Of a DNA stretch of 64,000 nt, positions 2,166 to 45,777 are shown piece by piece (within the stretch, counting starts at the first letter, position 1; the number at the start of each line of letters is the position of its first letter). The notes below the pieces were generated by a model that ran no database searches, was not told the origin of the DNA, and saw nothing but the letters and a program-made list of their open reading frames with translations. The translations under genes were made by a program, and so were the position numbers. This DNA is from a virus, in the IMG/VR virus record IMGVR_UViG_3300033143_002694, positions 1 through 64,000 of that record; one strand, given 5' to 3'.

Positions 2166-2253
2166 ACAGAAGGAGCGGTTAGAAAAACAGCATCATCAGA
2201 TCGCACCTTTAATAAAGAAACTTAACCAAATGCTCACAAGGAGAACAACGTAA
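2119..2253 (+). CDS. Small highly basic protein (44 aa)
   Basis: TTG at 2119 follows a good AGGAGAG ribosome-binding site and the frame ends with TAA at 2251-2253, overlapping the next ATG. The product is very basic (MNKKRKRRQKERLEKQHH, then LIKKLNQMLTRRTT) and could bind nucleic acid. It is shorter than the full open frame at 2038-2253, whose upstream ATG has no ribosome-binding site. Confidence 0.45.
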   Translation: MKHPSKSLMNKKRKRRQKERLEKQHHQIAPLIKKLNQMLTRRTT

Positions 2254-3653
2254 TGATTCGGAATATGAAAATTAACATCAATGCCACACAGACACCTGCA
2301 AAGGAAGAAGACTGTTCGAATGGTGCTTGTCAGGTAGAGGTCTCTCCGGAGATGACAGCTATCATGGAAAAGGAAGCAAAGGCATTGTTCGCTAAGAAAG
2401 TACAGAGAGATGATTGGCCAGATCAGTCTACCAAAGATCCGAAGGTTACACTGGCGATGATTGTTCGTGATGAATCAGTACATATCAGAGATTGTCTGGA
2501 AAGTATGAAAGACCACGTTGATGAAATAGTAGTTATCGACACCGGTTCTACAGATGCGACAGTTGAAATATGCAAGTCTTATGGCGCAAGGGTATACAAT
2601 TACCCATGGCAGGATAGTTTTTCAGTCGCACGTAATCAGGCTATCAAGCATGTTCGCACTCCATGGCTTATCCAGTTGGATGCCGATGAGCTTATGAGCA
2701 CTGAAGATGCGGCTAAAGTAAGAGATACCGTTCGTGCTGCTCATAAAACAACAGCGAACCTTGTACATATGGTGTTAGTAAACAAGGCAAAGGGTGACGA
2801 TGAAGTAATGTCTGTTATCAATACCGGGAAGATCATGAGGGTTCAACCTGAGCTCCACTTCGTCAACAGGGTCCATAACAAATTGGTCTGCAATGGCGAC
2901 GTTATTCAGTCAAACCTCACCATTATCCATCACGGATATTCACTTCCAGACAAAGATACAATGGCCGCAAAGAAAGATCGCACAACAAGATTGCTCAAAA
3001 TACAGCGGGAAGAACAGCCAGATGACCCTGAGACAGCACATTATCTCGCTATTCAGTATCTAAGGATGGATGATTGGGAAATGGCTATCGAGATCGGCAA
3101 GGTAGCGGTTGGATTATGGGAGAAGTATGATTGTCTTTCTCAGCTACAGTTGCTTTCTATGCATACAGTGGCCATGGCCTATTATCAGTTGGGATCAAGA
3201 TGTAAAACCAACGAAGAGCAGAGTGCGTTTTTTAGTAAGTCAGTTGTATATTCCAAGATGGCTTTGGGGCATTATCCGGATTACATCGATAGTAATTGCC
3301 TGCTGTCTTCAATATACTTTGCACAGAAAAATCACAAGGAGTGCGAGAAGTATGCAGTTGCATTTTTACGGGTTGCCGACATGCTGAAGAAGGACAATGC
3401 CAAGGCTTTGGTAATCCCCCTGATGTCCATGAAACATGAGTGGATGGTTTGCTTGCAGTTGGCTATCAATTTCTTCGAACAGGCTGATTCAGAAAAAGCA
3501 ATACACTTTATAGGTAAAGGTGAAGATTGTCTTCCTGCCGATCAGAAGTATAAAGTATCTTGGGGTGTCTTCAAGTATATGATTACGCTTGGTGACCCGG
3601 TTAGCCTAAAGAACGCAGAAGCTATATATTCAGTAGGGTATAGGGCAGAATAG
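2253..3653 (+). CDS. Family 2 (GT-A) glycosyltransferase with C-terminal helical repeats
   Basis: 466 residues. After a variable N-terminal 60 residues the GT2 fold begins with VTLAMIVRDESVHIRDCLES (about 66), followed by EIVVIDTGSTDATVEIC (about 92-108) and the DxD-type metal site LDADELM near 143. This pattern is typical of SunS-like GT2 enzymes that move a sugar from a nucleotide donor. From about residue 245 the sequence looks like TPR repeats (AHYLAIQYLRMDDWEMAIEIG). It opens the sugar block and its ATG overlaps the previous stop. Acceptor unknown: a cell-surface glycan, a protein or DNA are all possible. Confidence 0.85.
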   Translation: MIRNMKININATQTPAKEEDCSNGACQVEVSPEMTAIMEKEAKALFAKKVQRDDWPDQSTKDPKVTLAMIVRDESVHIRDCLESMKDHVDEIVVIDTGSTDATVEICKSYGARVYNYPWQDSFSVARNQAIKHVRTPWLIQLDADELMSTEDAAKVRDTVRAAHKTTANLVHMVLVNKAKGDDEVMSVINTGKIMRVQPELHFVNRVHNKLVCNGDVIQSNLTIIHHGYSLPDKDTMAAKKDRTTRLLKIQREEQPDDPETAHYLAIQYLRMDDWEMAIEIGKVAVGLWEKYDCLSQLQLLSMHTVAMAYYQLGSRCKTNEEQSAFFSKSVVYSKMALGHYPDYIDSNCLLSSIYFAQKNHKECEKYAVAFLRVADMLKKDNAKALVIPLMSMKHEWMVCLQLAINFFEQADSEKAIHFIGKGEDCLPADQKYKVSWGVFKYMITLGDPVSLKNAEAIYSVGYRAE

Positions 3654-3663
3654 AAAGGACGAC

Positions 3664-4656
3664 ATGCTTTTGAAAAATACAGGACACATAATGATAGTCG
3701 GAGTATTCGACGTTGAAGGTAGCACAAACATTGAGATGGCTGAGGGATTTCGATCCCTTGGCTACTCAGTTGAAACATATAATTATCGCACAAGGCTTAA
3801 AGAGCTCAAGTACCAAGACAGGATGGAAGCAGAGTATCTCAGTCTTATCCAAGGAAGAAAATTTGATCTACAGATATTTTGTAAAGTCAACCAAATGCAT
3901 CCTGCGGTACTACATCAGGCGAAGGAATCAGGTCCAACTTGGTATTGGTTCATGGATAATTTCGAAGGTTGCCGACAAACGCATGCAGCAACTTATGCCG
4001 CAAATGCGACTTATGCCAGTGCGACAGCCAGCGACGTTGCCGAAAGATTCAGCATGGTTAACAAGAAGGCTTATCATGTATTTGAAGGATACAATCCCAA
4101 GTTGTATTTCAAAGAGGAAGAACGTAAAGTCCGTGATTATATTTTTATAGGCAATGCCACGGTTCCAAGAGTTGTTGCTCTCACTGATCTCCGTAACAAG
4201 GGGTTCAAGATCGACATATTCGGCTATGGCTGGCCTATAGGAATGAAAGCAAGCGGACCCGTAATAGGTGAAGATGAACGGATTGAAATAAATAGTTCTA
4301 AAGTTGTCTTGAATCTTTGTCACGATAATGTTATATTTAGCGACAGAGTAACCAAGGCTTTAGCATGTGGGGCAAACGTTATTTCCCAGAACTGTACCGA
4401 TATCCGGGAGATGGTTAAATGGTTCACTAATAACCCTAAGCAGCAACAAGAGATAGAGGATACAGCAGCCAGTTGGATTGCGGTTATAAACGACAAAAGC
4501 ATCCTTCCTAAGCCTATCTTCAACCCTAGAACATATGTTGTTTATACGGATAGCAACACAGAAACATATACAAGACAGAATCATTCATGGGCATCAGTCG
4601 CAAGCAAACTTATTGAAAGGGTGGTGGTTGATGAGAGTACAATTCGGCAGTCCTGA
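3664..4656 (+). CDS. GT-B type glycosyltransferase (CgeB/GT1-like)
   Basis: 330 residues with two Rossmann-like halves. The N-terminal half starts with IMIVGVFDVEGSTNIEMAEGFRSLGY. The C-terminal half contains YIFIGNATVPRVVALTDLRNKG (about 159-180), IDIFGYGW and SDRVTKALACGANVIS (about 224-240), matching the donor-binding region of GT1/CgeB-like enzymes. Its 3' end overlaps the next gene by 26 bases. It lies between a GT2 enzyme and an aminosugar-type aminotransferase, so it probably acts in the same glycan pathway. Donor and acceptor cannot be read from the sequence. Confidence 0.75.
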   Translation: MLLKNTGHIMIVGVFDVEGSTNIEMAEGFRSLGYSVETYNYRTRLKELKYQDRMEAEYLSLIQGRKFDLQIFCKVNQMHPAVLHQAKESGPTWYWFMDNFEGCRQTHAATYAANATYASATASDVAERFSMVNKKAYHVFEGYNPKLYFKEEERKVRDYIFIGNATVPRVVALTDLRNKGFKIDIFGYGWPIGMKASGPVIGEDERIEINSSKVVLNLCHDNVIFSDRVTKALACGANVISQNCTDIREMVKWFTNNPKQQQEIEDTAASWIAVINDKSILPKPIFNPRTYVVYTDSNTETYTRQNHSWASVASKLIERVVVDESTIRQS

Positions 4657-5629
4657 TATTGATGCAGATTCACTGAGTACAGAAATCAATCATATCCTTA
4701 AGTCTGGATGGGTTTCTATAGGGGAATACGTAGAAGCTCTTGAGAACGCTTTTAAGGTGCGTTTCCGGGTTAAGCATGCCATAGGTACTAACTGTGCCAC
4801 AACAGGGCTTATCATCGCTCTCAAGGCGGCAGGATGGGGAAGAGACGCTCGCGGCACAGATGTTCATCTTCCTGCGTTCACATGGCCGAGTACGCTCTAT
4901 GCCGTGAAGTGTATAGGTGGATTCCCTATTTTTCACGATATTGACCCTGATACGTGGCTGATGAAAGAACCCGGTGATTCGTATGGCAAGCTATTACTGG
5001 TAGATACATTCGGTAATGCCGCAGAACATTTCGAAGGATTTGACAAAGAAGACACGATAATCGATGCAGCACATGGATATGGAAACGATCTTCTTGGTAA
5101 GAGGGGTATCGCTGAGGTAGTTTCCCTGTCATTCACAAAAGTAGTTACAGGCATGGAAGGTGGAATGATCCTTACAGATGATGACAAATTGGCAGAGACT
5201 GCGACAGAATTGCGAAGACTATCAGGTAGAATGGGCGAAATCAATGCGTTAATTGCGTTAAAGTCTATTGAGAATTATAAACCAAGCGTCGCGCAGTTCG
5301 CAGTCAATTACTATAAAGACCATATACAGGTTCCGTTTACATGTCAGTATGTACCCAATGACACCTCTAATAGTGTATTTAGTCTCAGGTTCGAATCTAC
5401 GGCTGTCAGAGATGCCATCAGGATTGCACTTGAGAAGGAAGGTATTGAAACCAAGGTATATCATGATCCACTTCAAGCAGGCCATCCGGAAACTGAAAAG
5501 CTGTACAGCACTATATTGTCTATTCCTACTCATGTTGATGCTGTTGCTATACAAGGCTACATCGTCGATATAATCAATACTGCGGCTCTTTACGCTAAAA
5601 CTCCGGGGAAGGAATTTCTAACAAGATGA
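4631..5629 (+). CDS. DegT/DnrJ/EryC1/StrS-family PLP aminotransferase
   Basis: I choose ATG 4631 over the upstream in-frame ATG 4535 because the product then begins MRVQFGSPDIDAD, as in the family. The 332 residues contain GTNCATTGLIIALKAAG (about 50-66), the substrate loop PAFTWPSTLYAV, DAAHGYG and SFTKVVTGMEGGMI, whose lysine (about 171) should form the Schiff base with PLP. Such enzymes usually aminate keto-sugar nucleotides for O-antigen or antibiotic sugars. The protein is a little shorter than typical (about 370). With the epimerase at 10.9 kb it could make an amino sugar donor. Confidence 0.85.
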   Translation: MRVQFGSPDIDADSLSTEINHILKSGWVSIGEYVEALENAFKVRFRVKHAIGTNCATTGLIIALKAAGWGRDARGTDVHLPAFTWPSTLYAVKCIGGFPIFHDIDPDTWLMKEPGDSYGKLLLVDTFGNAAEHFEGFDKEDTIIDAAHGYGNDLLGKRGIAEVVSLSFTKVVTGMEGGMILTDDDKLAETATELRRLSGRMGEINALIALKSIENYKPSVAQFAVNYYKDHIQVPFTCQYVPNDTSNSVFSLRFESTAVRDAIRIALEKEGIETKVYHDPLQAGHPETEKLYSTILSIPTHVDAVAIQGYIVDIINTAALYAKTPGKEFLTR

Positions 5630-5835
5630 AGTATAATAGATGTGCGAACTGCGGGTTTACAATACTTGACTTAGATGGTGGTATTTTCCTTGGGCATACA
5701 CTTGATTATTGGATTGATCTACAGGCTAGGGTGGATGAAATAGATGCCACGAAACTCGTAGAGGAAATAGTTCGTCTAAAGGCTAAGTTGTTCGATTATC
5801 AGGCAATTGAAAAATTATACAAGGACATAAAATGA
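5626..5835 (+). CDS. Small protein with N-terminal CxxC
   Basis: 69 residues starting with ATGA overlap. An N-terminal CANCG motif is followed by an acidic helical region (DEIDATKLVEEIVRLKAKL). It may be a half zinc ribbon or an accessory to the radical SAM enzyme that starts four bases before its end. No family recognised. Confidence 0.6.
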   Translation: MKYNRCANCGFTILDLDGGIFLGHTLDYWIDLQARVDEIDATKLVEEIVRLKAKLFDYQAIEKLYKDIK

Positions 5836-7220
5836 AAATCACATTTATACAGCCTTATTACGAAAACGTATGGGAAGCTTTAGGTATAGGTTACATAATA
5901 GCTTATGCGAAACTTAAGACAGGGGAAAAACATGACTATCGTTTCTTTCATGGAAATTTTGATGACGAGGCTGATATGGTGCTGCAAGGCTCCAAGTCTG
6001 ATATTGTCGCGATTTCGTGTACCAGTCCTACGTATGGAAATGCCATACATTTGGCCAATAGCATTAAGCTACTTAATTCTAAGGTACATATTGTTTTAGG
6101 TGGATGGCACCCAACAGCATTACCGGAAGAAGTTATCAAGGAGTTGAACGTAGACCAAGTAATTGTCGGTGAAGGGGAACTGGCAATGGTCAGAGTGATA
6201 ATGGGTAGCAGGAAACCAATAATAACCGGTGTCAAATTGTCACCAGATGAATTACCATGGCCAGATCGTGAAGCTATAAAGAATGAAAGAACCATCGATC
6301 TCTGTGAGAGTATGAACGGTAAGCGCATCGCCTCGTTCCAGATGAACAGGGGTTGTAAGGTCCACTGTAAGTTTTGCTCAGAAGTGACAATGACAGGACA
6401 GCACCATTGGAAGAAGAATCCTATTCGCACACGGAACTACGATGCGGTGCTAAATGAGATCGCAGGGGTTAGTGCAGATTTCGGAATTAACTATTTCAAG
6501 TTCGTTGATGCAACTTTTGACAAAGACACACAGACAGTAATTGATTTCTGCAAGAGGAAAGTTGAACGTGGTAATACGATGCCATGGGAAGCAAATATCC
6601 ATCCTAATTTCGTACAGAAGGAAGAAGTTTTCGAGTGGCTTGAGAAGGCGAATTGTGAACAGATTAACGTGGGTGTGGAGTCTGGTAGTCCTTATGTACT
6701 TACGGACGTAGGTAAGGGTACATCTCTTGATGGAATAAAGAGGGTGTTCGCATGGGCAAAGAAGTATAATATCAAGAGACGTGCATTTATTCTGATAGGC
6801 ATGCCTGATGAAACCAATGAAGATATTGATTATACGATTGAGTTGCTTGATGAGATAGAGCCAGATGTTGTTGGCTTTACAATCTTGGCACCATACCCCG
6901 GTGGAGATTATTTTAATTTGTCCTTGCATAAAGATGTAGATTGGAGTAAAGTAGATGAGTATTCTAATGACGTGTGGAGTACTGAGAGCTTTAGCAATAT
7001 AGAGCTGAAGAACACGCAGGCTTACCTGATGGGTAGGTATGACCATTTATTATGCGAGAGGCAGGGTGCCGTGAAAGTACACAAGATGATAAAACCTAAG
7101 CCTTGGGGTAGTGGCCGCTTAAAGAAAGGCCCCCTATGTCATGTAGATACATTCGAGAAACTGTCTTACAGGTGGGACAAAGTGACTTGCGAATTTTGTC
7201 TTAAGAAACGAAAAGCTTAA
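5832..7220 (+). CDS. B12-binding-domain radical SAM protein
   Basis: 462 residues. Residues 1-130 look like a cobalamin-binding Rossmann fold (MKITFIQPYYENVWEALGIGYIIAYAK, IVAISCTSPTYGNA, VLGGWHPTALPEEV). The radical SAM core follows with RGCKVHCKFCSE at about 173-184, the CX3CX2C set that holds the 4Fe-4S cluster. INVGVESGS and GMPDETNED are typical downstream motifs. The C-terminus has an extra CEFC. Class B enzymes of this type often methylate unreactive carbons, but many members are unassigned. Its position between aminotransferase and glycosyltransferase genes suggests a sugar or glycan substrate (inference). Confidence 0.85.
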   Translation: MKITFIQPYYENVWEALGIGYIIAYAKLKTGEKHDYRFFHGNFDDEADMVLQGSKSDIVAISCTSPTYGNAIHLANSIKLLNSKVHIVLGGWHPTALPEEVIKELNVDQVIVGEGELAMVRVIMGSRKPIITGVKLSPDELPWPDREAIKNERTIDLCESMNGKRIASFQMNRGCKVHCKFCSEVTMTGQHHWKKNPIRTRNYDAVLNEIAGVSADFGINYFKFVDATFDKDTQTVIDFCKRKVERGNTMPWEANIHPNFVQKEEVFEWLEKANCEQINVGVESGSPYVLTDVGKGTSLDGIKRVFAWAKKYNIKRRAFILIGMPDETNEDIDYTIELLDEIEPDVVGFTILAPYPGGDYFNLSLHKDVDWSKVDEYSNDVWSTESFSNIELKNTQAYLMGRYDHLLCERQGAVKVHKMIKPKPWGSGRLKKGPLCHVDTFEKLSYRWDKVTCEFCLKKRKA

Positions 7221-7225
7221 CATGT

Positions 7226-7300
7226 GGGGATATGGTATAATGGCTATTACATCAGGTTTTGATCCTGATAATCGTGGTTCGATTCCACATGTCCCTACCA
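7226..7300 (+). tRNA. tRNA-Gln (TTG)
   Basis: Cloverleaf read by eye: acceptor GGGGATA/TGTCCCT, anticodon stem TCAGG/CCTGA around loop TTTTGAT (anticodon TTG), T-loop TTCGATT, discriminator A and encoded CCA. The T-stem has four pairs plus one C-A mismatch. It sits alone inside the sugar block, just before the fusion gene. Confidence 0.85.
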
Positions 7301-7319
7301 ATTTAGAAAGGGGAGCATT

Positions 7320-9281
7320 TTGACAAAGAACAGGTTTGCAATGGTTACAAGGGCAGATGGGAATATTAAGGAGTTGACAGCGGTTACCCATCCTATCTTA
7401 ATGGATTATGCCAAGCAGTGGGGGTGTGACTTCATAGTGCTGGACGAGAAAGAAGCGTGGATGATAGATTATGAATTGGCTCATTATCGCATTTTACGTG
7501 TAAGGGAAATACTTGAACACTACGAGAGGGTACTGGTGATAGATTCAGACATTGTGATTATGCCACACTGTCCTAATCCTTTCGAAGTAGTACCAGTAGA
7601 CAAGATAGGAAGTATCTTTGAGGATGTTGGCAGTAGGCAGTCAATGAGGCAGGGAGTTATAATGTCCATACAGGAAAGGTGGGGAGATGTCGGATGGGAA
7701 GAGGGGTATATTAACACTGGATTCTTCGTTGTATCTCGTCAACATTCGAACATTTTTCAGGCGATACAAGGTCAGCATTGGACAGGATTTGGATACGATG
7801 ATGCGCTTATCGGTTACAACATCCACAAGTTCGGACATGAAGTTCATGAGTTGTCGTTCCAGTTTAATCACATGAGTATGTTTTCGGAAGATTGGAATGG
7901 TAATGCAAGCAGATTTAATTCGTATGTCATCCACTACGCAGGACTGGCAAGGTTTCCAGACGACAGGTCAGGGAGAGCACTGACTAATGGCAATGATATG
8001 GCCTGTAGACTTGAGCTCATTGAAAGCGATATCATAAGAATCACAAACGGTCTTATGGCATTCAATAATGTGAAACCTACCCGGTTACAGGGATATGGCA
8101 GTAGGTGTTACCATGCAACGGTAGGGGTGGCAGAGAAGCGTGTAATATTGAAGATACCAAATACCAAAGAATGCCTGAAGAGAGAACTGAAAGTTCTTTC
8201 ATCGAACATACCCGGAATTGTTAAGTGCCTTGATGTTGGCACTCATGACATAGGCACCTTTATGATGCTCGAAGAACTTTTCCCAATACCAGATCAGTTT
8301 CCGGTAGAAGTTATGTTGACATTGGCAACGGATGTTTTAATCGCAATGAGGCAGTTGTATAAAGCAGGTATACCTTGGATATGCAAGAAAGAGCATATCA
8401 TGATGGATGGTGAAGGGCATATCAAGCTTGTTGATTTTGGCGATGATCCGTATGATAGACCAGTACCGTTCTATGGCGACAAGGAAGCAATAATTAAGGA
8501 TGGGGAATGTGATATAAACGGTGAGTATATAGACCGTGAGCTCTTCCCGTGGTCAGGATATTTGGCCGTAATGAAATGGTTCTGTGATAAGAATAACACA
8601 CCTTACAGCATCCTTGGAGCGGCAGAAACGAATATGATTACGTATGAGTATCAGAATCTCAAAGACGTTCATCATCCTATATGGGATGAAGAGTATAATG
8701 ATATCATGAGGACAGAGTCCGAGAAGGATGACCCTAAGTATGGCCAGTTAGTCCCTGCGAATAGAGACTGCAATGATCGTGCGGATATGATCTACGAGAA
8801 CATTGAGCCTTGGATGACGGATGAAACAACATGGCTGGATATCGGTTGTAATGTCGGTTGGTTCTGTTTTGAGTTTGCTGAACACTTCAAGATGACAGGT
8901 GTTGACTTTGATAACGAGAAGATTCAGTTTGCTCAGATGATGGCAGAGGCTAATAACGTAGAAGCTACGTTCCTGAAGTTCGAAGTAGATATCAATACAA
9001 TCGACATGCTGCCAAGGTATGATGTGATCTCAGTATTAAGCATGATGCACTTGCAGTTGGTAAAAGATAAAGACCCGATTGCATTTTGGAAACTGTTCAA
9101 GGCTATTACAAAGAAAGCCAAGAAGATGTTTATCTTTGAATTCCCAAACCATTCAATAGGGCTCTTGAATATACATCCTAAGTATTTCGCAGATAACGTT
9201 AAGATACATGGCGGGTTTGCAAGTGTTGAAGAGATAGGTGTCAGCGATGCAGGAAGGGCGGTGCTGAAATGTCTCAGATAA
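7320..9281 (+). CDS. Three-domain fusion: glycosyltransferase, kinase-like domain, SAM methyltransferase
   Basis: 653 residues from TTG 7320 (AAGGGGA upstream). Residues 1-240 look like a GT-A glycosyltransferase: FAMVTRADGN, then ERVLVIDSDIVIM with the DxD near 74, and EEGYINTGFFVVS. Residues about 255-470 look like a protein/sugar kinase: VILKIPNTKECLKREL (Lys and Glu pair), GIPWICKKEHIMM in the catalytic-loop position and IKLVDFGDD (DFG, about 370). The usual HRD aspartate is not visible, so activity is uncertain. Residues about 495-653 are a methyltransferase (WLDIGCNVGWFCFEF, VDFDNEKIQFAQ). Kinase plus methyltransferase in one chain recalls WbdD, which caps O-antigen with methyl phosphate, though the domain order differs. 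The next gene overlaps by 13 bases. Confidence 0.75.
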   Translation: MTKNRFAMVTRADGNIKELTAVTHPILMDYAKQWGCDFIVLDEKEAWMIDYELAHYRILRVREILEHYERVLVIDSDIVIMPHCPNPFEVVPVDKIGSIFEDVGSRQSMRQGVIMSIQERWGDVGWEEGYINTGFFVVSRQHSNIFQAIQGQHWTGFGYDDALIGYNIHKFGHEVHELSFQFNHMSMFSEDWNGNASRFNSYVIHYAGLARFPDDRSGRALTNGNDMACRLELIESDIIRITNGLMAFNNVKPTRLQGYGSRCYHATVGVAEKRVILKIPNTKECLKRELKVLSSNIPGIVKCLDVGTHDIGTFMMLEELFPIPDQFPVEVMLTLATDVLIAMRQLYKAGIPWICKKEHIMMDGEGHIKLVDFGDDPYDRPVPFYGDKEAIIKDGECDINGEYIDRELFPWSGYLAVMKWFCDKNNTPYSILGAAETNMITYEYQNLKDVHHPIWDEEYNDIMRTESEKDDPKYGQLVPANRDCNDRADMIYENIEPWMTDETTWLDIGCNVGWFCFEFAEHFKMTGVDFDNEKIQFAQMMAEANNVEATFLKFEVDINTIDMLPRYDVISVLSMMHLQLVKDKDPIAFWKLFKAITKKAKKMFIFEFPNHSIGLLNIHPKYFADNVKIHGGFASVEEIGVSDAGRAVLKCLR

Positions 9282-9868
9282 AAACGTTTGGTAGTCACTT
9301 AGTGGATTTTGATTTAATACCAAAAGAGGGTGGTGTCTTTATAGACGCAGGAACATGTCAGGGGAATTTTATCGATGACATATTTAAGCATGTGAAGAAT
9401 CCTCACATATTCGCACTTGAGCCAAATAGGGATAATTACCGGCTCATTAGGGAAAATTATGGTGGGGATATTAATATGCATACCAATGAAGCAGCACTTG
9501 TTGGTAGTGGTGAGCCAAAGACTATGAGGTTTGCACAGTTCGATGGCTTGCCTGAATGGGGTAATGTTTCAGGGCTGTATTCAATCAGGAAGCACAAGAT
9601 GTATGACGTGGATACTACGACCATCCATGAGGTACTGAAAGAGATTCCAATGGATATAATACACCATCTCAAGATGGACATTGAGGGATGTGAACATAAA
9701 GTAATTAAAGATTTAACAAAGGATGATGCGAAGCGTATTCAGCAGATATCCTTAGAGGTTCATAATGGCTTACAGGGCATGCTTGAACATTTAGAGGTAA
9801 TAGGTTATGATGCCAAGTTCGAGAAAGGCGAACTGTACGCTATTACCAGATTGAAAAAAAATAATTAA
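9269..9868 (+). CDS. FkbM-family SAM-dependent methyltransferase
   Basis: 199 residues. FIDAGTCQGNFIDDI (about 24-38) is the SAM-binding glycine loop. ALEPNRDNYRLIREN supplies the acidic ribose contact, and LKMDIEGCEHKVIKDL (about 133-148) is the strongly diagnostic FkbM motif. The family O-methylates sugars, polyketides or other hydroxyl groups, often in glycan clusters. The start overlaps the end of the fusion protein, so the two methyltransferases are probably made together. Confidence 0.85.
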   Translation: MSQIKTFGSHLVDFDLIPKEGGVFIDAGTCQGNFIDDIFKHVKNPHIFALEPNRDNYRLIRENYGGDINMHTNEAALVGSGEPKTMRFAQFDGLPEWGNVSGLYSIRKHKMYDVDTTTIHEVLKEIPMDIIHHLKMDIEGCEHKVIKDLTKDDAKRIQQISLEVHNGLQGMLEHLEVIGYDAKFEKGELYAITRLKKNN

Positions 9869-9937
9869 TCCTCTTTAATAATACTGAGCTCATTGATATG
9901 ATTGTATTATTGCATAACCTTATTAAGGAGTTTGATT

Positions 9938-10855
9938 GTGAACCTACCAGTTGGTAAGAATTTAAGAATTTATGGAGTAAGTTATGGTATTACAGGTGAC
10001 CTCATTATGGGGTTGCCTGTACTTACCTATTTCGAAAAGCTGTATCCTAATAGCTATAAGATTTGGGCAATAGAGAAGAAGGTCGGATACATGGCACCTT
10101 TCTTCCTTAATCACCCATTGATAGACAGGCTCAAGATTACACAGAAGTGGGACACGTTGGGAGAACAGGATAGACGGATAATAGAGGGATGTTATATCGC
10201 ATGTACGCATGAGAACTGGCAACATTCACGCCTTGATTGGTACAACTATGTCGACTGCATAGAAGAGACTGCATTTGTCGCAGGAGTGAAAGACTTAACA
10301 TCGGTACTTAGTACTGACGATATGTATCCGAAGCTTGAGCAGTGGTTTGACATTGGCACTGATGATTTAAATTTCCAGACTTATTCTAATCGTAGCAATG
10401 CAGATATCCGTGTAAAGCACAAGACTATTGCATTGTGGCCATTCGCTACAGCGACAGGGAATATAGCAAGGTCACCATCGATAGCATGGTACACAAGACT
10501 TGTTGAGGATTTAACCTATCAGGGATATGACGTATTTCAGTTTGGGTACAAGAGAGATCAGATAATTGGGCTCACCCACTCACATACACATATGACGTTT
10601 TTCGATCAAGTGAGACTAGCATTGAGTTGTAAGATGTCGATAGGTACAGACAGTGGAAACATGTGGGTTATGGGGGCATACAGCCATCCTGCGGTACACC
10701 TGATGACTAACTGGATGACTAAGCATACAAAGAATTTTGACGCACTATTACCACGTAATAAAAAAGGACATACATGTTTTGCAGAAGGCGGTGCAAACAA
10801 TATTTCAAGAGAGCAAGTAATAACGGCAGTTGACCTTATAATGGGAGGTAAGTAG
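9938..10855 (+). CDS. GT9 (heptosyltransferase-like) glycosyltransferase
   Basis: GTG 9938 is preferred: AAGGAG lies seven bases upstream, while upstream in-frame starts lack a site. The 305 residues have a GT-B shape, with YGVSYGITGDLIMGLPVL near the N-terminus (the GDxxxxxP region of GT9) and the C-terminal donor site SIGTDSGNMWVMGAYSHPAVHLM. GT9 enzymes add ADP-heptose to LPS core, but phage copies may use other donors. A 69-base AT-rich gap precedes it. Its stop overlaps the next GTG start. Confidence 0.7.
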   Translation: MNLPVGKNLRIYGVSYGITGDLIMGLPVLTYFEKLYPNSYKIWAIEKKVGYMAPFFLNHPLIDRLKITQKWDTLGEQDRRIIEGCYIACTHENWQHSRLDWYNYVDCIEETAFVAGVKDLTSVLSTDDMYPKLEQWFDIGTDDLNFQTYSNRSNADIRVKHKTIALWPFATATGNIARSPSIAWYTRLVEDLTYQGYDVFQFGYKRDQIIGLTHSHTHMTFFDQVRLALSCKMSIGTDSGNMWVMGAYSHPAVHLMTNWMTKHTKNFDALLPRNKKGHTCFAEGGANNISREQVITAVDLIMGGK

Positions 10856-11808
10856 TGAGATTTCTTATAACTGGAATTAATGGATTTGTTGGACCACACC
10901 TAGCTGCAGAGATAAAAAGGCAGGGACATACAGCGGTAGGAATGTCTCATACAGGAGTTGAAGACTTGGCTGACTGTGAAGTGTTGAGTGGTGATATAAG
11001 GGACCAGATGGAGATTGATGATATTATGCGTGACCGTACCTTTGACGGGGTATTCCATTTAGCATCAAAGACACATCCACCAACATCATTCAAAGACCCG
11101 GTGGGCTTCTTTGAGACAAACGCAATGGGTGCTGTTTATTTAGCAGATACAATCGTGGCGCATCAGCCAGATACTTGGTTAATGAATTGCTCAACATGTG
11201 AAGTATACGGTATACACCCAGATGGTACCCGTATAAGCGAAGATACTCCAACGCTGGCATCTAATCCTTATTCAGTCTCTAAGCTTGCCGCAGACTTATA
11301 CATTAAAGAGAGAAGCGAGAATGGGCTGTTGAAATCTTTCACCACTAGAGCCTTCTCGCATACAGGGCCGGGTAGACCTATGAGTTACTCTATATCTTCT
11401 GACGCTTTCCAGATCGCAAAGATCATTAAGGGTAAGCAGAACGCAGAAATAAGTGTAGGTAATCTTAGCTCAAAACGTGTAGTCATGGATGTGAGAGACG
11501 TTGTCGCGGTGTATTGGCAGTTGATGGAGAGCTACATAACCCTACCTTCATGGAAGCATAAAAATGGAGAGGTGTGGAATATAGGTGGTGACGATCTACA
11601 CGACATGGGATATTACCTTCAATTAATGCTGGATATATTCAATCTGGAAGCAGAGACTAAGGTGTGCGATAAGTTGTACAGGAAGTTTGACATACCTGTT
11701 CAGTATCCTGATAGCACAAAAATAAGATCGCAATTAGGATGGGACCCGAAATACAATATCACTCGCACATTATCAGACTTGGTTAACTATTGGTTAGAAA
11801 GGGTATAA
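10855..11808 (+). CDS. Extended SDR: NDP-sugar epimerase/4,6-dehydratase
   Basis: 317 residues from GTG 10855 (GGGAGG upstream). The NAD(P) loop is ITGINGFVGPHLA (about 5-17). Further motifs are GDIRD, VFHLASKTHPPTS, NCSTCEVYG and YSVSK near residue 140 with the catalytic Tyr and Lys. TRAFSHTGPGRP resembles GDP-mannose 4,6-dehydratase and its relatives. It likely makes the keto or epimerised nucleotide sugar used by the aminotransferase and glycosyltransferases nearby (inference). Overlaps both neighbours by one base. Confidence 0.85.
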   Translation: MRFLITGINGFVGPHLAAEIKRQGHTAVGMSHTGVEDLADCEVLSGDIRDQMEIDDIMRDRTFDGVFHLASKTHPPTSFKDPVGFFETNAMGAVYLADTIVAHQPDTWLMNCSTCEVYGIHPDGTRISEDTPTLASNPYSVSKLAADLYIKERSENGLLKSFTTRAFSHTGPGRPMSYSISSDAFQIAKIIKGKQNAEISVGNLSSKRVVMDVRDVVAVYWQLMESYITLPSWKHKNGEVWNIGGDDLHDMGYYLQLMLDIFNLEAETKVCDKLYRKFDIPVQYPDSTKIRSQLGWDPKYNITRTLSDLVNYWLERV

Positions 11809-12863
11809 TGGGGGTAGAAGACGCTGACTCACACAAATTGGGGTTACACCCACATAAGGTATCGAGATGGCTCCAAGGAGTGTCGGTGCCGTTTCATGCC
11901 GAAATAGGTATTACGAATAGATGTAATCATAAATGTAGTTTCTGTACACTTGACTGGATTACTCATGGTAGCACGGATCTCAACCCATCCATATTATTCA
12001 AGGCATTGCAGGAATTAAAATACATGGGTGTCAAGTCAATATATCTTGCAGGTGAAGGCGAGCCAACAATGCACCCGGATTTCACTGCGATTGTCAATCA
12101 GATCAAGCATATGGATATGCAAGTAGCAGTTTCTACTAATGGGCAACGGTTCACAGACAGTGTAGCAGATCGCACATTAAAGGACATATCGTGGATAAGG
12201 TTCAGTTTAGAGACCATTGATCCATCTACTTACCAGAGAATACATGGGGTTGGGTATAACTGTTTGCGGAAGGTGACTGAGAATATCCAAGACGCTGTAT
12301 CTATAAAGAAAGAGCGCAACCTTTCTGTAGACATAGGTGTCCAGATTATCCTCACAGAAGAAACCGCATTAACGTTAAATGACACAGTTGAGTATCTCAA
12401 GGGGATCGGTGTAGACAATGTCCAGATAAAACCCTGTCACACGCACCCAAATAGCTCACATCAAGAGCAGATGGACTTAAGCATGTATGACCATGTTAAG
12501 GTCGAGATGGAGGACTACGTAGACGATAAGTTCAATGTCATCGTAAGGACCCTGAGTATGAATCGATTACTGGAGCCTCGCACGTATTCCCGCTGTCACG
12601 GCTTCGATTTCTATGTTCTTATAAATGCAAACGGTGAGGTGGTTCCATGTAACGTTTTCTACCATAAACCTGAGTTTGTGTATGGAAATATAAACATGCA
12701 ATCAATTGGCGAGATATGGAGATCGGAAAGAAGGCAGTATATCATAAAGAGTATAGAATGCTCAAAATTTTCACATTGTGGTGATTACAGATGCAGGCTG
12801 GATGTTATGAATAGGCATCTTGACCGAGTAAAGCACCCAGAAAGGAATGACGTGTTCATATGA
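11808..12863 (+). CDS. Radical SAM protein with SPASM-like C-terminal cysteines
   Basis: ATG 11808 overlaps the upstream stop (TAATG); length 351 aa. EIGITNRCNHKCSFCTLDW holds CX3CX2C at about 40-47, followed by GVKSIYLAGEGEPTMHPDF. The C-terminal region has cysteines in RCHGFDFYVLINANGEVVPCN and in CSKFSHCGDYRC, as expected for an auxiliary Fe-S cluster domain (SPASM). GEGEPT and the ANGEV.PC motif are family hallmarks. SPASM enzymes modify peptides or sugars; BtrN-like members oxidise sugar alcohols. Substrate unknown. Confidence 0.85.
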   Translation: MGVEDADSHKLGLHPHKVSRWLQGVSVPFHAEIGITNRCNHKCSFCTLDWITHGSTDLNPSILFKALQELKYMGVKSIYLAGEGEPTMHPDFTAIVNQIKHMDMQVAVSTNGQRFTDSVADRTLKDISWIRFSLETIDPSTYQRIHGVGYNCLRKVTENIQDAVSIKKERNLSVDIGVQIILTEETALTLNDTVEYLKGIGVDNVQIKPCHTHPNSSHQEQMDLSMYDHVKVEMEDYVDDKFNVIVRTLSMNRLLEPRTYSRCHGFDFYVLINANGEVVPCNVFYHKPEFVYGNINMQSIGEIWRSERRQYIIKSIECSKFSHCGDYRCRLDVMNRHLDRVKHPERNDVFI

Positions 12864-13021
12864 GTGAGTGTAACCATATAGAGGTCCGCAAGTTAAGTTC
12901 TTTTTTTCCATGGATACCACCGGATGAAGATAAGGACGTTAGGTGTTTTAATAAAACCGAGGCAGATCAATGCCGTGTATGCAAGGGAATAATAAAGGAG
13001 AGTTATGATACGACAGATTGA
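12860..13021 (+). CDS. Small four-cysteine protein (53 aa)
   Basis: ATG 12860 overlaps the previous stop as ATGA and the frame ends at TGA 13019-13021, overlapping the next gene by 17 bases. CNH near the start, a central C, and CRVCKG near residue 38-43 suggest one zinc site. Similar short zinc proteins are scattered through this genome. Function unknown. Confidence 0.55.
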   Translation: MSECNHIEVRKLSSFFPWIPPDEDKDVRCFNKTEADQCRVCKGIIKESYDTTD

Positions 13022-14006
13022 AAAGATGATTGAGTATAAAAACCGGGGAGGTGCTTACGATCAGTCAAGAAGGGCAAGCAAGCACATAACGCAGATAAAT
13101 ACCGAAGACAAGATCCTGCTTGGCGCGTCACAAGGCATTGGTAATGCTATACTTACGACACCACTGATTAAAGCGTTAACCGATATGCACCTGCATGTTG
13201 ATATAATTTGCTCCGGTACCGGCATGATGAATGGTGCAGAGTTTGTATTCGATGGAATGGAAAACGTAAAAGTTTTACCAGAAGAAGGGATCGAAGGCAG
13301 GCGTTATCTGTTGGGTATCCAGACAATGTGGCCGTATCCGGGGATTGAGAAATACGTGTCTCAGATCAGGTTTGCTCCAAATATTAACAAGGTCTGGGAA
13401 GACGGTATTCTTGCGCATGAGGTAGATATTAATATGTCAGTAGCTCGTTCTCTTAAGTTTGCAGGTGCTACTCCGGATCTATATTGCAATTACAGTGAGA
13501 TACCTGATTTCAACAAGCATCGCGACAAGAAGAATATCGGTATACATATTTGTCGGAAATATAATCATCAGTTCATGGCCAACCGTAGGCTATCAGATCC
13601 CTTGGCTATTGGTAGGGAGTTGATCAAGCAGGGGCATAGAGTGTTTATCATAGGACGTGAAGACGCTGTACAGTCTGAATATAGACGTGCGCACTCCGAC
13701 TTTGTGTATTGTTTAGGCCAGCCTCTTCCAGAGGTAGCAGGATTAATAAGGGAATTGGACTGCATAGTCAATGAGGATTCCGGTATAATGCATATTACAG
13801 CAGCAATGAAAACTCCACAGGTGGCAATTTTTGGACCAACAACCGATGTTAAAAACTCGCCATGGTCAGACGTTGCGAAGGTTGTCAGGAAAGATATCCA
13901 GTGCGCACCATGTCAATATACGGAGCGTGCGACTAATTGTTGTAAGAACATTTGCATGGACATAGACGCATCCTATATAGTAAAACATGTTAATGAGTTA
14001 CTTTAA
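13005..14006 (+). CDS. GT9 ADP-heptose:LPS-type glycosyltransferase
   Basis: 333 residues. ILLGASQGIGNAILTTPLIKAL (about 37-58) is the N-terminal GT9 signature. The C-terminal donor half has LDCIVNEDSGIMHITAAMKTPQVAIFGPTT (about 249-278), and the tail with several cysteines (CAPCQYTERATNCCKNIC) is common in heptosyltransferase-like enzymes. It is the second GT9 protein of the block and clearer than the first. It implies work on an LPS-like or other heptose-bearing glycan, consistent with a Gram-negative host (inference). Confidence 0.85.
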   Translation: MIRQIEKMIEYKNRGGAYDQSRRASKHITQINTEDKILLGASQGIGNAILTTPLIKALTDMHLHVDIICSGTGMMNGAEFVFDGMENVKVLPEEGIEGRRYLLGIQTMWPYPGIEKYVSQIRFAPNINKVWEDGILAHEVDINMSVARSLKFAGATPDLYCNYSEIPDFNKHRDKKNIGIHICRKYNHQFMANRRLSDPLAIGRELIKQGHRVFIIGREDAVQSEYRRAHSDFVYCLGQPLPEVAGLIRELDCIVNEDSGIMHITAAMKTPQVAIFGPTTDVKNSPWSDVAKVVRKDIQCAPCQYTERATNCCKNICMDIDASYIVKHVNELL

Positions 14007-14012: not shown

Positions 14013-14089
14013 AGCGGTGTAGAGAAGTGGCCTATCTCGCGAGCCTCATAAGCTCGAAATCGCTGGTTCGAATCCAGCCACCGCCACCA
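14013..14089 (+). tRNA. tRNA-Met (CAT), with initiator-like features
   Basis: Anticodon arm CGAGC-CTCATAA-GCTCG, D-stem GAGA/TCTC, T-arm GCTGG-TTCGAAT-CCAGC and encoded CCA. The acceptor pairs from position 2, leaving A1 opposite C72 unpaired. Pair 11-24 is A-T, as in bacterial initiator tRNA. The three G-C pairs usual in initiator anticodon stems are missing, so class is uncertain: initiator-like, elongator, or Ile-CAT. Confidence 0.85.
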
Positions 14090-15535: not shown

Positions 15536-15970
15536 ATGTCAACTATGGAGACGAGGGATCAGTGGAACCGAAGGGTGGATCTAGACATGAGAAGCTGTAA
15601 CGAAATGCGTGTACGGCTAGAAGAACATGACAAGGCCCAACAGAAGGAGATTGACAGTAACAAAGAAGAGATATCGGAATTGTATGATTATAAGAATGAC
15701 ATCTATAGAAAGGTTACTGAGAACAAGGCAAACGCTGCAACTGTGGCCGATTACAATACCATGAAAGAACAGGTCACTCAGCTTCGAACAGAGAAGAAGT
15801 TTCTGCCGTATGTTGTAATGATTATATCTCTTATAGGTACGATCATGTCGGGGATCTATATTACAAACAAATTTTCAAGGGGAGAGCATGTCAGCAAGTC
15901 AAGCAATAAGAATGAGGCTCATGAACGACTTCCTGTACTACGCACCCCGGTGTCTAAAGATAGTAGGTAA
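15536..15970 (+). CDS. Coiled-coil membrane protein, possible XhlA/holin-like
   Basis: 144 residues. The first 85 are charged and heptad-patterned (RVRLEEHDKAQQKEIDSNKEEISELYDYKNDI). A single transmembrane helix follows at about 86-107 (FLPYVVMIISLIGTIMSGIYIT), then a basic tail. This layout resembles haemolysin XhlA-type proteins associated with phage lysis. The gene overlaps TerL by 83 bases, so the extreme C-terminus may be constrained by the second frame. Confidence 0.6.
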   Translation: MSTMETRDQWNRRVDLDMRSCNEMRVRLEEHDKAQQKEIDSNKEEISELYDYKNDIYRKVTENKANAATVADYNTMKEQVTQLRTEKKFLPYVVMIISLIGTIMSGIYITNKFSRGEHVSKSSNKNEAHERLPVLRTPVSKDSR

Positions 15971-17600
15971 AGATGGAACGTTACAACCATTCGTATTGAA
16001 TAAAGCTCAAATACTTATTCATGGGATGATAGAGAAGCAGAAGAAAGAGAAGGGTTATGTAAGGGTCTTAGCACTAAAGCCACGAAAGTTAGGGCTTTCT
16101 ACTTATACAGAAGGTAGATTTTATCATAACACATCACATCGGACTGGTGTTGGTGCAATGATAATGACGGAAGCCGATCAAAGCAGGGATGGTTTGTTTC
16201 GCATGGTGAAGACTTATCATGAGAATATTCCGGATGAGATAAGACCGCAGACTCTCCAGTCCAACGAGAAAGCTTTAGTATTTGATACTCCAAAGGGAAC
16301 TGGCTTAAAGAGCCGCTATGACGTAAAAACGTGTGACTCCAAGGGTGGTAAAGGTATCACCACTCATTTCAATCATTGGTCAGAATGCGCCTACTTTAGC
16401 AAGAACTCTTTGGATAATCTAAGTGGATTGCTTGAATCAATTCCATCTGGATGGCCACACATCCTTGACACTGAGGTCATTAAAGAAACTACTGCAAACG
16501 GAACTGCAGGTCATTTCTACGATCACTGGTGCGAGATGGACGATATTAGGAAGAAGGGCAAGGTCCCTGAGTATCTTCAGGTATTTATCCCGTGGACTTA
16601 TGATGAGGACTACCGCCTCCCGGTTACAGCAGAGCAGCGGAAATACATTCTTAATACGCTTACCGATGAAGAGAAGTGGTTATTAAGGTTTGTGAACCCC
16701 GATGGCTCTCGTACAACTGTGGAGAATGTCGCATGGCGAAGGTGGAAGATAGGAGAGGTTATCGCTCCTCTGGGGTTTACCAAGGAGGACTTCTTTAAAC
16801 AGTGGTTCCCTATGACTCCAGAGGAAGCCTTTGTTTTTTCTGGAAAGAGTATATTTGGTATCTCGGATTTAATAGCGGCTCAACTTGAATGTTATCCACC
16901 GGAAGCAGTAGGTACCTTTAATTACTACGGCAAGTTTGTAGAGCATAAAGAAGGTATCATGCAGGTATGGCAGACACCAAGACTCGGAGAGAAGTATGTC
17001 ATCGGTGCTGACGTGGCAGAAGGTATTGCGGGAGACAAACATGACTATTCATCCGCAGATGTAATTAAGTGTTCTAACGGACAGCAGGTAGCTCATATCA
17101 ACTGCAAACTGGACCCTGACCAATGGGGTGCTTTCCTTAATCATCTTGGTAGGTACTACAACAACGCTCTGATAGGCTGTGAGGCGAATAACCATGGCTT
17201 AACGACTCTTACCACCCTTAAGCACAAGAGCTATCCAAAGGTGTACCAGAGGGAGAAATTAGATGCTAATGCTACAGGACGAAAACAAAAACAAGCAGGC
17301 TGGCTTACTACAGTTAAAAGCAAGTTCAAAATTATTGACGGACTTGTTACGATTGTCAGAGATCGTGACACAGGAATTGTCTGCTGCGAAACCATTGAAG
17401 AGTTTAAGAACTACTCCATCTTGGAAGATGGTGCTTTTGGAGCAATGCCGGGAAAACACGATGACCGGGTCATGAGCTATGCGATTGCGCATGAGATGTA
17501 TATGACCATGCCGCTTATGAGATTAACACAGAATCAGAGACAGGCAAGGGAGACAGGCAAGGTGTTAAACCTCAAAGAAGCAGAGGTGACAGTTGCATAA
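15888..17600 (+). CDS. terL: Terminase large subunit
   Basis: 570 residues; ATG 15888 has GGGGAGAG upstream. The ATPase part has the degenerate Walker A LALKPRKLGLST (about 61-72) and a later acidic motif. The nuclease part starts with YVIGADVAEGIAGDKHDYSSADV (about 369-391), giving the RNase-H-like acidic residues. It cuts concatemeric phage DNA and drives packaging through the portal encoded just downstream. No small terminase subunit was recognised nearby. A promoter and leader follow its stop codon. Confidence 0.9.
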   Translation: MSASQAIRMRLMNDFLYYAPRCLKIVGKDGTLQPFVLNKAQILIHGMIEKQKKEKGYVRVLALKPRKLGLSTYTEGRFYHNTSHRTGVGAMIMTEADQSRDGLFRMVKTYHENIPDEIRPQTLQSNEKALVFDTPKGTGLKSRYDVKTCDSKGGKGITTHFNHWSECAYFSKNSLDNLSGLLESIPSGWPHILDTEVIKETTANGTAGHFYDHWCEMDDIRKKGKVPEYLQVFIPWTYDEDYRLPVTAEQRKYILNTLTDEEKWLLRFVNPDGSRTTVENVAWRRWKIGEVIAPLGFTKEDFFKQWFPMTPEEAFVFSGKSIFGISDLIAAQLECYPPEAVGTFNYYGKFVEHKEGIMQVWQTPRLGEKYVIGADVAEGIAGDKHDYSSADVIKCSNGQQVAHINCKLDPDQWGAFLNHLGRYYNNALIGCEANNHGLTTLTTLKHKSYPKVYQREKLDANATGRKQKQAGWLTTVKSKFKIIDGLVTIVRDRDTGIVCCETIEEFKNYSILEDGAFGAMPGKHDDRVMSYAIAHEMYMTMPLMRLTQNQRQARETGKVLNLKEAEVTVA

Positions 17601-17663: not shown

Positions 17664-17729
17664 GGACTGGTTTGATATTGCGTGTGAACCCACACAGTCA
17701 CATTCGTATTGTTCCGGTCCTGTTTTTTT
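17664..17729 (+). terminator. Long-loop hairpin plus T-run in the portal leader
   Basis: GGACTGG (17664-17670) can pair with CCGGTCC (17714-17720, one G-T), followed by TG and seven T. A second hairpin, GTGTG/CACAC with loop AACC, is nested at 17682-17695. Because it lies between the promoter and the portal start it would act on the leader RNA, as a terminator, attenuator or processing site. Confidence 0.5.
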
Positions 17730-17738
17730 GGAGATAAA

Positions 17739-19904
17739 ATGTCAGGATTAGTTCAGACCGCATCTATTCAGGCTGTTAACGAAGAAGAAAAACAACGAGA
17801 GTTGTTAGGGATTGAAGGAGAGGCAGAAGCCCTTACTTTCGGTTCACAGCTACAATCAAGATGGCAATCGTGGAAAGATATTCGTACTCCACAGGAAGAG
17901 CAATGGCTGATCAACCTAAGACAATTTTATTCTCAGTATGAATCAGAAATAGAAAATGCTATAAAAGCTGGCAGGTCAAGGACTTACGTAGGTATAACTC
18001 GGATGAAAGTCATGGCTGCATACTCCAGACTTGTTGATGTGTTTTTCCCTGCAACTGGCAAGAGGCATTGGCAAATCAAGCCGACTCCAGAGCCAACAGA
18101 ATTTGCAGGAACAAGAGCAAAGGCAGAAGTCTTAACCGGTATTCCGGATGCACCACAAGTCGATTCGGAGAAATCACCAGCCGACAAAGCCGCAGAAGCA
18201 ATGTCATTTAGGATTAACGATCAGTTGGTTGAGTCCGATTACGATCTTTTATTCCTTGAATCAATATTAGAGCAAGTTATCTTAGGCTCAGGTTGCATAA
18301 AATCAGCGTCCATTAAGGTAGAGAGAGACTTTGGGTGGATGGATACTGATGAGGGATGGATGTTCCAGCCAAGAGAAGAACTTGAAATCAAGCCACAAAT
18401 AGAAGCACCATCAATATTTGATGTGTATCCGGACCCTGATGCATCTGATATGAAAGCAGGTATAGGATGCTTCCAACGTCATGTATTAAACAAGCACGAA
18501 TTCAGAAAACTAAAGAAGTTTGCAGGATTTGATAAGCAACAGATTGATACGTATTTGCTGCGGTATCCGAACGGTGATCACTTGGATGAATGCCATGAGA
18601 TCGAAAGGAAGAAGCTTGCACATCAATCACAAATTCAGGAAACCCATACACGATACGATGTCCTTGAATATTGGGGATACGTAGACGGTGAGGAACTTAG
18701 TACCATGGGAATCGACATTACAGAGAAGCAGATGTCAGAGGAATTCATGGCTAACGTATGGACTGTCGGTAGTGAGGTTATTAAAGTAGTATTAGATCCG
18801 TCTGTAGATGATGGTTTGCCATTCTTCATATTCCCTTACGAGAAGGTCTCTAAGAAGATATGGGGCCGTGGAGTGCCTGAGATATGTGCAGATAGTCAAG
18901 AGATATTAAATGCGGCTGCAAGACGATTATTAGATGATGTAGCATTGCTTGGTCCACAAATAGAGATCAACGTAGATGACTTATCTCCAGAGGCAGTTAA
19001 ATTGATAGACGAAGTTTATCCGTTTAAAGTACATCCAAGAACAGGTGGAGATGCCCAAACACCATTAATGCGAGTGCATAACCTTCAAAGCGTAAGTAGA
19101 GAACTGGTTGAAATTATCAATATATTCAGAGGCTTTATTGATGAAGAAACTAATCTGCCAACTGCGGGAACAAGTGGTGTTGGAGATATGGGTGGTAACG
19201 AAACCGCACAGGGTACACAACTTCTACAGAATGCCGCAAACATAGTACAAAGAGCAGTGGTTAGTAACATAGACAGATACGCTATTGACCCGTTCTTCAC
19301 GAAGCTATACATGTTTTTCATGCAATGGAGTGATGATGAGTCTATCAAGGGCGACCAGAAGGTTAATGCAATGGGTTCTAGCACCTTACTAAAAGCGGAG
19401 GTCATGACTACTCAGTTAATTAATATGCTGAATATCACGAACAACCCTACCGATATACAACTCACAAAGCGTGATAACATGTTGAGAATGGTTGCAGAAA
19501 ATCAGGGACTTGATGAGGATGAAGTTGTTAAGACTCCGGAAGAGATCAAGGAACTTGCAAACGACCCTGTCAAGAAACAAATGGATCAGTTGGCAATGAA
19601 TAGAGCCACTCTTGAGAATGAAGAAATTTCTTCCAAGATAGAGAAGGAGCAGTCAGAGGTTTCACGAAACCAAGCAGCTATTGAAAACGATATCGAACTT
19701 ATGAGATTAAAGGCGATAGAACTGCAGGGTAAGGAAATCGAAGCTGCTGCCTTATTAAGACTTAAGGAGAAGGAGATTGACGCAAACATCCTTCATCAGT
19801 CTACGGAGAGTAAGAAGACTGCAGGTGAGAAGAAAACATCTGTAGGTGCAACAAATAAAACATCAAAGAATGATGGCGCAAAGACCAATAACAAGAAGGG
19901 GTAA
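17739..19904 (+). CDS. Portal (head-to-tail connector) protein
   Basis: 721 residues from ATG 17739, which follows TTGGAG; the upstream TTG would extend into the leader T-run. Size, position right after TerL, and motifs such as FYSQYESEIENAIKAGRSRTYVGITRMKV, PDPDASDMKAGIGCFQ and IFPYEKVSKKIWGRGVPEICADSQEILNAAARRLLDD fit the podovirus-type portal. The C-terminal 110 residues are a charged coiled coil with a Lys/Thr-rich tail. Twelve copies would form the DNA entry channel and tail attachment site. Confidence 0.85.
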   Translation: MSGLVQTASIQAVNEEEKQRELLGIEGEAEALTFGSQLQSRWQSWKDIRTPQEEQWLINLRQFYSQYESEIENAIKAGRSRTYVGITRMKVMAAYSRLVDVFFPATGKRHWQIKPTPEPTEFAGTRAKAEVLTGIPDAPQVDSEKSPADKAAEAMSFRINDQLVESDYDLLFLESILEQVILGSGCIKSASIKVERDFGWMDTDEGWMFQPREELEIKPQIEAPSIFDVYPDPDASDMKAGIGCFQRHVLNKHEFRKLKKFAGFDKQQIDTYLLRYPNGDHLDECHEIERKKLAHQSQIQETHTRYDVLEYWGYVDGEELSTMGIDITEKQMSEEFMANVWTVGSEVIKVVLDPSVDDGLPFFIFPYEKVSKKIWGRGVPEICADSQEILNAAARRLLDDVALLGPQIEINVDDLSPEAVKLIDEVYPFKVHPRTGGDAQTPLMRVHNLQSVSRELVEIINIFRGFIDEETNLPTAGTSGVGDMGGNETAQGTQLLQNAANIVQRAVVSNIDRYAIDPFFTKLYMFFMQWSDDESIKGDQKVNAMGSSTLLKAEVMTTQLINMLNITNNPTDIQLTKRDNMLRMVAENQGLDEDEVVKTPEEIKELANDPVKKQMDQLAMNRATLENEEISSKIEKEQSEVSRNQAAIENDIELMRLKAIELQGKEIEAAALLRLKEKEIDANILHQSTESKKTAGEKKTSVGATNKTSKNDGAKTNNKKG

Positions 19905-43760: not shown

Positions 43761-43833
43761 GCCTGAGTAGCCGAACGGCATAGGCAGCGGACTTAAAATC
43801 CGTAATCTGTAGGTTCGACTCCTACCTCGGGCA
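43761..43833 (+). tRNA. tRNA-Leu (TAA) with short variable loop
   Basis: Acceptor GCCTGAG/CTCGGGC, discriminator A, no encoded CCA. Anticodon arm GCGGA-CTTAAAA-TCCGT (anticodon TAA), T-arm GTAGG-TTCGACT-CCTAC. The variable region is only five bases (AATCT), whereas bacterial leucine tRNAs normally have a long variable arm. Confidence 0.8.
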
Positions 43834-43853
43834 TTTATTTTTCAAGGAAAGCT

Positions 43854-44132
43854 ATGAACACAGCCGAATACGATTCACAAATGAAGGAGATCAGAGATGA
43901 TTATTTAGTCAAGTGTAAGAAGTTGAGGATTCAGTTTGTGGCAAGTAACACAACGGTTAGGGTAGGCGATGTTATCAAGGATCATAGTGGCTCTATCGTA
44001 GTTGAGAAAACAGGAGTTAATGTTCCACTTACAGGATACCCTGAGCCAAAGTTTTATGGTATCGAATTGAAGAAGGATGGCACACCAAGGAAAGATAAGG
44101 CGAAGCGTTGGTTATTTGGATGTAACATGTAA
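43854..44132 (+). CDS. Hypothetical protein between tRNAs
   Basis: 92 residues after CAAGGAA. Charged N-terminal helix, then a beta-rich part (SNTTVRVGDVIKDHSGSIVVEKTGVNVPL) and FYGIELKKDGTPRKDKAKRWLFG at the end. The fold resembles small beta-barrels found in several phages, but I assign no function. Confidence 0.6.
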   Translation: MNTAEYDSQMKEIRDDYLVKCKKLRIQFVASNTTVRVGDVIKDHSGSIVVEKTGVNVPLTGYPEPKFYGIELKKDGTPRKDKAKRWLFGCNM

Positions 44133-44167
44133 TAAGCATCTGGCAGGTCACTCCATTATTTTATTTT

Positions 44168-44242: not shown

Positions 44243-44262
44243 CGTTTCAACAAGGAGTTTCG

Positions 44263-44526: not shown

Positions 44527-44564
44527 TTTATTTTTTGTTTAACGTTTTGAATAAGGGGATTATT

Positions 44565-44963: not shown

Positions 44964-44964
44964 T

Positions 44965-45767: not shown

Positions 45768-45777
45768 ATTTTAACAT

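Follow-up and report, generated by a model that had tools for sequence, protein, structure and literature searches.

The fusion gene and its surroundings

The DNA analyzed here is a stretch of 64,000 nucleotides (the window), drawn from the 68,188-base record of an uncultured phage. A single uninterrupted reading frame at positions 7320-9281 of the plus strand encodes a protein of 653 amino acids in which a glycosyltransferase, a kinase-like domain, and a methyltransferase are fused; one metagenomic relative (L002) is fused over its complete length. The gene begins with a TTG codon, preceded at a distance of four bases by a sequence, AAAGGGGAG (7307..7315, plus strand), that is probably its ribosome-binding site. 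Two relatives (L013 and L014) likewise start with TTG at the same position. A tRNA-Gln gene (7226-7300) ends 19 bases before the start of the fusion gene, and the last 13 bases of the fusion gene overlap the next gene, which begins at 9269. This tRNA gene and a tRNA-Met gene (14013-14089) occupy short gaps within and at the end of the cassette described below.

The fusion gene is part of a cassette spanning 2253-14006, which also contains four other glycosyltransferase genes and sugar and radical enzymes, all on the plus strand. Upstream of the fusion gene, annotation identified a GT2 glycosyltransferase with TPR repeats that resembles SunS (2253..3653), a glycosyltransferase of the Glyco_trans_1_2 family (3664..4656), a DegT/DnrJ/EryC1 aminotransferase (4535..5629), and a B12-binding radical SAM enzyme (5832..7220) of a type that recurs near the GT8-like glycosyltransferase in many viral loci. 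Downstream are an FkbM-family methyltransferase (9269..9868), a GT9-like glycosyltransferase with a weak family match (9902..10855), an NAD-dependent epimerase/dehydratase of the SDR type (10855..11808), a radical SAM/SPASM enzyme (11790..12863), and a GT9 glycosyltransferase (13005..14006). The cassette is followed on the same strand by the annotated genes for the large terminase (15888..17600) and the portal (17709..19904). Reading of the open reading frames in L062, a contig carrying part of a relative of the fusion gene, revealed a similar gene order as far as the terminase- and portal-like genes. No flippase, polymerase, ABC transporter, or predicted membrane protein was found in the cassette, and a hydropathy scan of the cassette proteins gave no peak typical of a membrane segment.

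Elsewhere in the window, positions 43761-53272 hold a tRNA cluster followed by an RtcB ligase, a phosphoribosyl pyrophosphokinase-like gene, NAMPT, YqaJ, an RNA ligase, and RecT, so that genes for RNA repair and NAD salvage adjoin recombination genes. Positions 37594-43068 encode a protein of 1824 amino acids with a RadC-like JAB domain and an LPD38 domain.

Three domains and a rebuilt catalytic loop

An earlier note on this DNA had described one 653-residue chain with a DxD-containing glycosyltransferase, a kinase-like middle apparently lacking the HRD aspartate, and a SAM methyltransferase at its end. The frame is intact and this description held throughout; the motifs are located at residues 74-78 (IDSDI), 275-278 (VILK), 287-290 (KREL), and 371-374 (VDFG). 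An AlphaFold run of the whole chain from the single sequence reached a pLDDT of 32 and was set aside; the folds proposed for the glycosyltransferase and methyltransferase, as well as the domain interfaces, are therefore predictions from sequence.

The N-terminal domain (residues 1-225; 7320..7994, plus strand) is predicted to be a GT8-like glycosyltransferase. Its own score against GT8 (Pfam PF01501) is 12.8 bits, below the cut-off of 24.3, whereas relatives exceed the cut-off (26.0 bits for L016 and 38.4 bits for L057). We aligned this domain with 30 relatives, some of which pass the GT8 cut-off; D75 and D77 of the DSD motif (75-77), H205, and G208 are invariant across the 31 sequences. Both hallmarks of GT8 enzymes, the DxD motif and the C-terminal histidine, are thus present. 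A search of the glycosyltransferase profile against the PDB gave only weak matches (WbbM, 0.055; LgtC, 0.27). Stand-alone GT8-like proteins are common among environmental viruses (L033-L060 and L016 are viral contigs), and B12-radical SAM and SDR genes often adjoin the stand-alone gene, forming a recurrent viral sugar module.

A linker (EYQ...VHHPIW) and a class I SAM methyltransferase make up the C-terminal part (residues 443-653; 8646..9278, plus strand), recognized by Pfam, by its motifs, and by a match to WbdD. The methyltransferase proper covers residues ~470-653 and passes the gathering score of Methyltransf_25 (PF13649; 32.9 bits versus 27); its glycine-containing SAM motif, LDIGCNVGWF, is at residues 506-515. 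The closest solved structure is WbdD, with an E value of 4e-5 from the single sequence and 9.8e-13 from a five-member profile searched against the PDB. The sulphate pocket of WbdD is formed by R31, C33, and R36 (PMC3482155). These residues align with R482-x-C484-x-x-R487, which is invariant in five relatives; a bacterial methyltransferase in L023 has a similar R-x-C-x-x-R. The pocket motif shared with WbdD could indicate a phosphate substrate. The equivalent of WbdD H132 is retained in the fusion methyltransferases, whereas that of H133, which is essential in WbdD (PMC3482155), is Leu or Trp, and for this reason the motif is suggestive but not diagnostic of such a substrate. For R203 and Y16 of WbdD, the alignment gave no assignable counterpart in the fusion methyltransferase.

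The middle domain (residues ~250-440; 8067..8639, plus strand) was assigned a kinase fold by alignment, profile search, an AlphaFold model, and structure search. The match to Pfam Pkinase is weak (15.5-18.2 bits versus a cut-off of 31.7). A six-sequence profile found protein kinases with a best E value of 0.0017; all 60 of the 60 matches listed were protein kinases, and these align with the motifs in register. The earlier note had proposed fold prediction and a structural search for this segment, and both returned a kinase fold: a model built from the six-member alignment had a pLDDT of 77.2 and a pTM of 0.76, and Foldseek against the PDB gave a best E value of 3.9e-7 at a probability of 1.0, with kinases accounting for 50 of the 50 matches listed. 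The model also matches protein kinases in viral structure libraries. TM-scores against kinases are ~0.4-0.6, because the C-lobe is short and partly modeled at low confidence.

Six kinase domains were aligned (the window, L002, L013, L062, L003, and L053; two of the six proteins are incomplete in other domains). The motifs in the window are the Gly-loop Q257-G-x-G260, K278, E289, P352-W353-I354...H359, and D372-F-G-D375-D376. No variation occurs among the six domains in the Q-G-x-G of the Gly-loop, in the αC Glu, or at D372 and D375, and the position of D376 is always acidic; the Lys is retained in all of them, with a slight shift of the alignment required for L003 and L053. HRD is absent from every one. 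The position of the catalytic Asp is occupied by Ile or Pro, and that of the Mg-binding Asn by His (I354 and H359 in the window), and the Trp immediately before the lost Asp is invariant. The replaced residues sit 18 and 13 positions before the DFG Asp, a spacing identical to that of D351, N356, and D369 in WbdD, which makes both assignments unambiguous. Of the residues expected in an active protein kinase, the Lys, Glu, and DFG Asp are therefore present, and the HxD Asp and the Asn are gone. The earlier note had suggested looking for an acidic residue in place of HRD; no conserved acidic residue lies within the catalytic loop in the six aligned domains. Purifying selection acts on the kinase domain (pN 0.22 and pS 0.73 between the window and L013; dN/dS values are approximate, since synonymous sites are close to saturation). 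Judged by the alignment, its site is conserved and rebuilt, as opposed to decayed.

These residues bear on whether the enzyme works in the manner of WbdD, with a non-canonical but active kinase phosphorylating the added sugar and the methyltransferase converting the product into a methyl phosphate cap. Catalysis might then depend on D375/D376 after the DFG or on a metal held by H359. Consistent with such a mechanism, the nucleotide site is retained, the methyltransferase is nearest to that of WbdD with the pocket residues in place, and the kinase and methyltransferase domains are never found apart among the relatives. However, the equivalents of D351 and N356 are replaced in every relative, as is that of H133, and mutation of D351 to Ala or Glu abolishes the activity of WbdD (PMC3482155). 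Methyl phosphate capping by the known mechanism, which the earlier note had put forward, is therefore unlikely, and we consider a WbdD-like reaction by other catalytic means rather improbable. The likeness to WbdD that the note had pointed out stands for the methyltransferase and fails in the catalytic loop.

Relatives and proposed function

All the relatives of the fusion protein are metagenomic. The full fusion in L002 (674 amino acids, 61% identity) is on an unrelated contig. A second, incomplete fusion covers the glycosyltransferase and kinase in L013, a contig of 3.7 kb whose placement in a gammaproteobacterial bin says little about the host. The third fused relative belongs to one virus divided between contigs L014 and L062, which overlap inside the fusion gene: the end of L014 and the start of L062 have identical residues there, and the two contigs look like pieces of one virus of ~69 kb. 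In L003 and L053 the glycosyltransferase and the kinase-methyltransferase are separate genes within one shared cassette, and therefore act in one pathway. In a phylogeny of the glycosyltransferases, the four fused sequences group together in a single, fully supported clade, which fits one fusion event. Searches of the INPHARED phages by tblastn, using the whole protein and the L003 and L010 kinase-methyltransferases as queries, gave no match. Plasmid matches span the methyltransferase only, and in 274 genomes around L013 only methyltransferase-level matches were found besides L013 itself. L053 also has a radical SAM/SPASM gene (10652-12802) in which, read by eye, the Cys motif appears to be interrupted by an intein-like insert of ~300 extra in-frame residues, with a Cys start, a VHN-Cys end, and a DAEGH-type endonuclease motif.

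The separate genes in L003 and L053 would fit a frame or assembly error that merges neighboring genes, an outcome under which, according to the earlier note, its reading would fail. The fused relatives, assembled independently and either complete (L002), continuous from glycosyltransferase to kinase (L013), or overlapping within the fusion (L014/L062), rule this out, as does the single clade of the fused glycosyltransferases; we assign such an error practically no weight.

Starting from the established domains, their fusion, the conserved change in the catalytic loop, and the cassette, we consider it about an even chance (a probability of roughly 0.5) that the protein is a cytosolic multi-domain enzyme that finishes glycans, with a virion acceptor. 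The GT8-like domain would transfer a sugar from a nucleotide-sugar onto a growing glycan, and the methyltransferase would then methylate the new end and so finish it; we infer that the methyl group is placed, most simply, on a sugar hydroxyl. The kinase fold between them is most likely a pseudokinase that binds nucleotide or substrate and organizes or regulates both transferases, without donating phosphate. Glycosylation would probably take place in the cytoplasm, with a virion protein as the acceptor. By analogy, the SunS-like GT2 enzyme in the cassette suggests direct glycosylation of protein, and there is a precedent in mycobacteriophages, which glycosylate proteins of their own capsid and tail tube (PMC12363180).

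The same chemistry might instead be directed at the host surface, where lipopolysaccharide or capsule would be remodeled and other phages excluded. The heptosyltransferase-family (GT9) genes of the cassette fit this possibility, and the published interpretation of phage sugar clusters, including those of cyanophages, favors surface polysaccharide (PMC7824862). However, genes for membrane proteins, such as a flippase, polymerase, or ABC transporter, are missing from the cassette, and the terminase and portal genes adjoin it, as they do in L062. Since no export machinery was seen and head genes are adjacent, decoration of the virion is favored over host surface glycans, which we think an unlikely target; the suggestion in the earlier note that host surface glycans are frozen after infection is not supported. 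Gene position and the absence of export genes are the sole basis on which a virion target is the more likely one.

Phage DNA or a small molecule could also serve as the acceptor, in which case the cassette would produce a hypermodified base or a secondary metabolite. Pathways of these kinds frequently include radical SAM and aminotransferase enzymes, both found in the cassette. Phage bases bearing sugars exist (PMC12838424). However, no base-modifying gene was recognized within the annotated parts of the window, and the multiple glycosyltransferases suggest an oligosaccharide; we regard a DNA or small-molecule acceptor as very unlikely.

The W-[IP]-x-x-x-x-H loop might also define a new class of kinase-fold enzymes that perform ATP-dependent glycan chemistry without the HRD Asp and the Asn. 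The reaction could be phosphotransfer, nucleotidylation, or another; of the two fused partners of the domain, the transferase would supply its substrate and the methyltransferase would cap its product. We hold this class to be distinctly doubtful. Among the papers searched, none unites bacteriophage, pseudokinase, glycosyltransferase, and methyltransferase.

If the glycan-finishing enzyme with a pseudokinase is the correct reading, phages, like giant viruses, finish their own glycans with multi-domain enzymes, and a kinase fold with a rebuilt catalytic loop has been retained for its nucleotide site. With the parts encoded by separate genes in L003 and L053, each can be assayed on its own, and the role of a pseudokinase in a glycan enzyme becomes open to direct testing.

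Comparison with glycan-capping and related proteins

WbdD from E. coli O9a (PDB 4azw and 4uw0) is a kinase-methyltransferase that terminates O-antigen chains. The fusion protein resembles it in having a related methyltransferase with the R31/C33/R36 pocket residues, a neighboring kinase fold, and the same spacing to the DFG. The order of the domains differs, as the earlier note had recognized: in WbdD the methyltransferase precedes the kinase, whereas in the fusion protein the kinase precedes the methyltransferase and a glycosyltransferase is fused in front. The fusion chain also stops after the methyltransferase, leaving no room for the C-terminal coiled coil of WbdD, and it has the equivalents of D351, N356, and H133 replaced.

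A group of bacterial and viral proteins of ~400-550 amino acids (L010 and L068-L073), which we take to be NoeA-like, places a related methyltransferase behind an N-terminal domain, in the same order as in the fusion (hhalign probability between the methyltransferases, 95.8%). Unlike the fusion protein, these proteins keep a D-x-x-x-x-N motif and have no glycosyltransferase; homology between their N-terminal domain and the kinase domain received no support from hhalign.

ORF6 of Klebsiella O7 (PMC11231755) likewise carries kinase, methyltransferase, and glycosyltransferase modules on one chain. It differs in that the methyltransferase comes first, the GT2 modules lie behind, and a coiled coil is present; its kinase is of another type, in which the catalytic Asp, D441, is active (PMC11231755).

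By analogy of layout, the closest functional analogue may be A064R of chlorovirus PBCV-1. This protein of 638 amino acids (GT-A, GT, and methyltransferase) acts on the chlorovirus capsid glycan, to which it adds two rhamnoses and whose end it methylates (PMC9614988). Its middle domain is a second glycosyltransferase, whereas that of the fusion protein has a kinase fold, and it comes from a eukaryotic virus as opposed to a phage. The two proteins are similar in size, and A064R, too, places a retaining GT-A domain with a DXD motif before a middle domain and a C-terminal methyltransferase.
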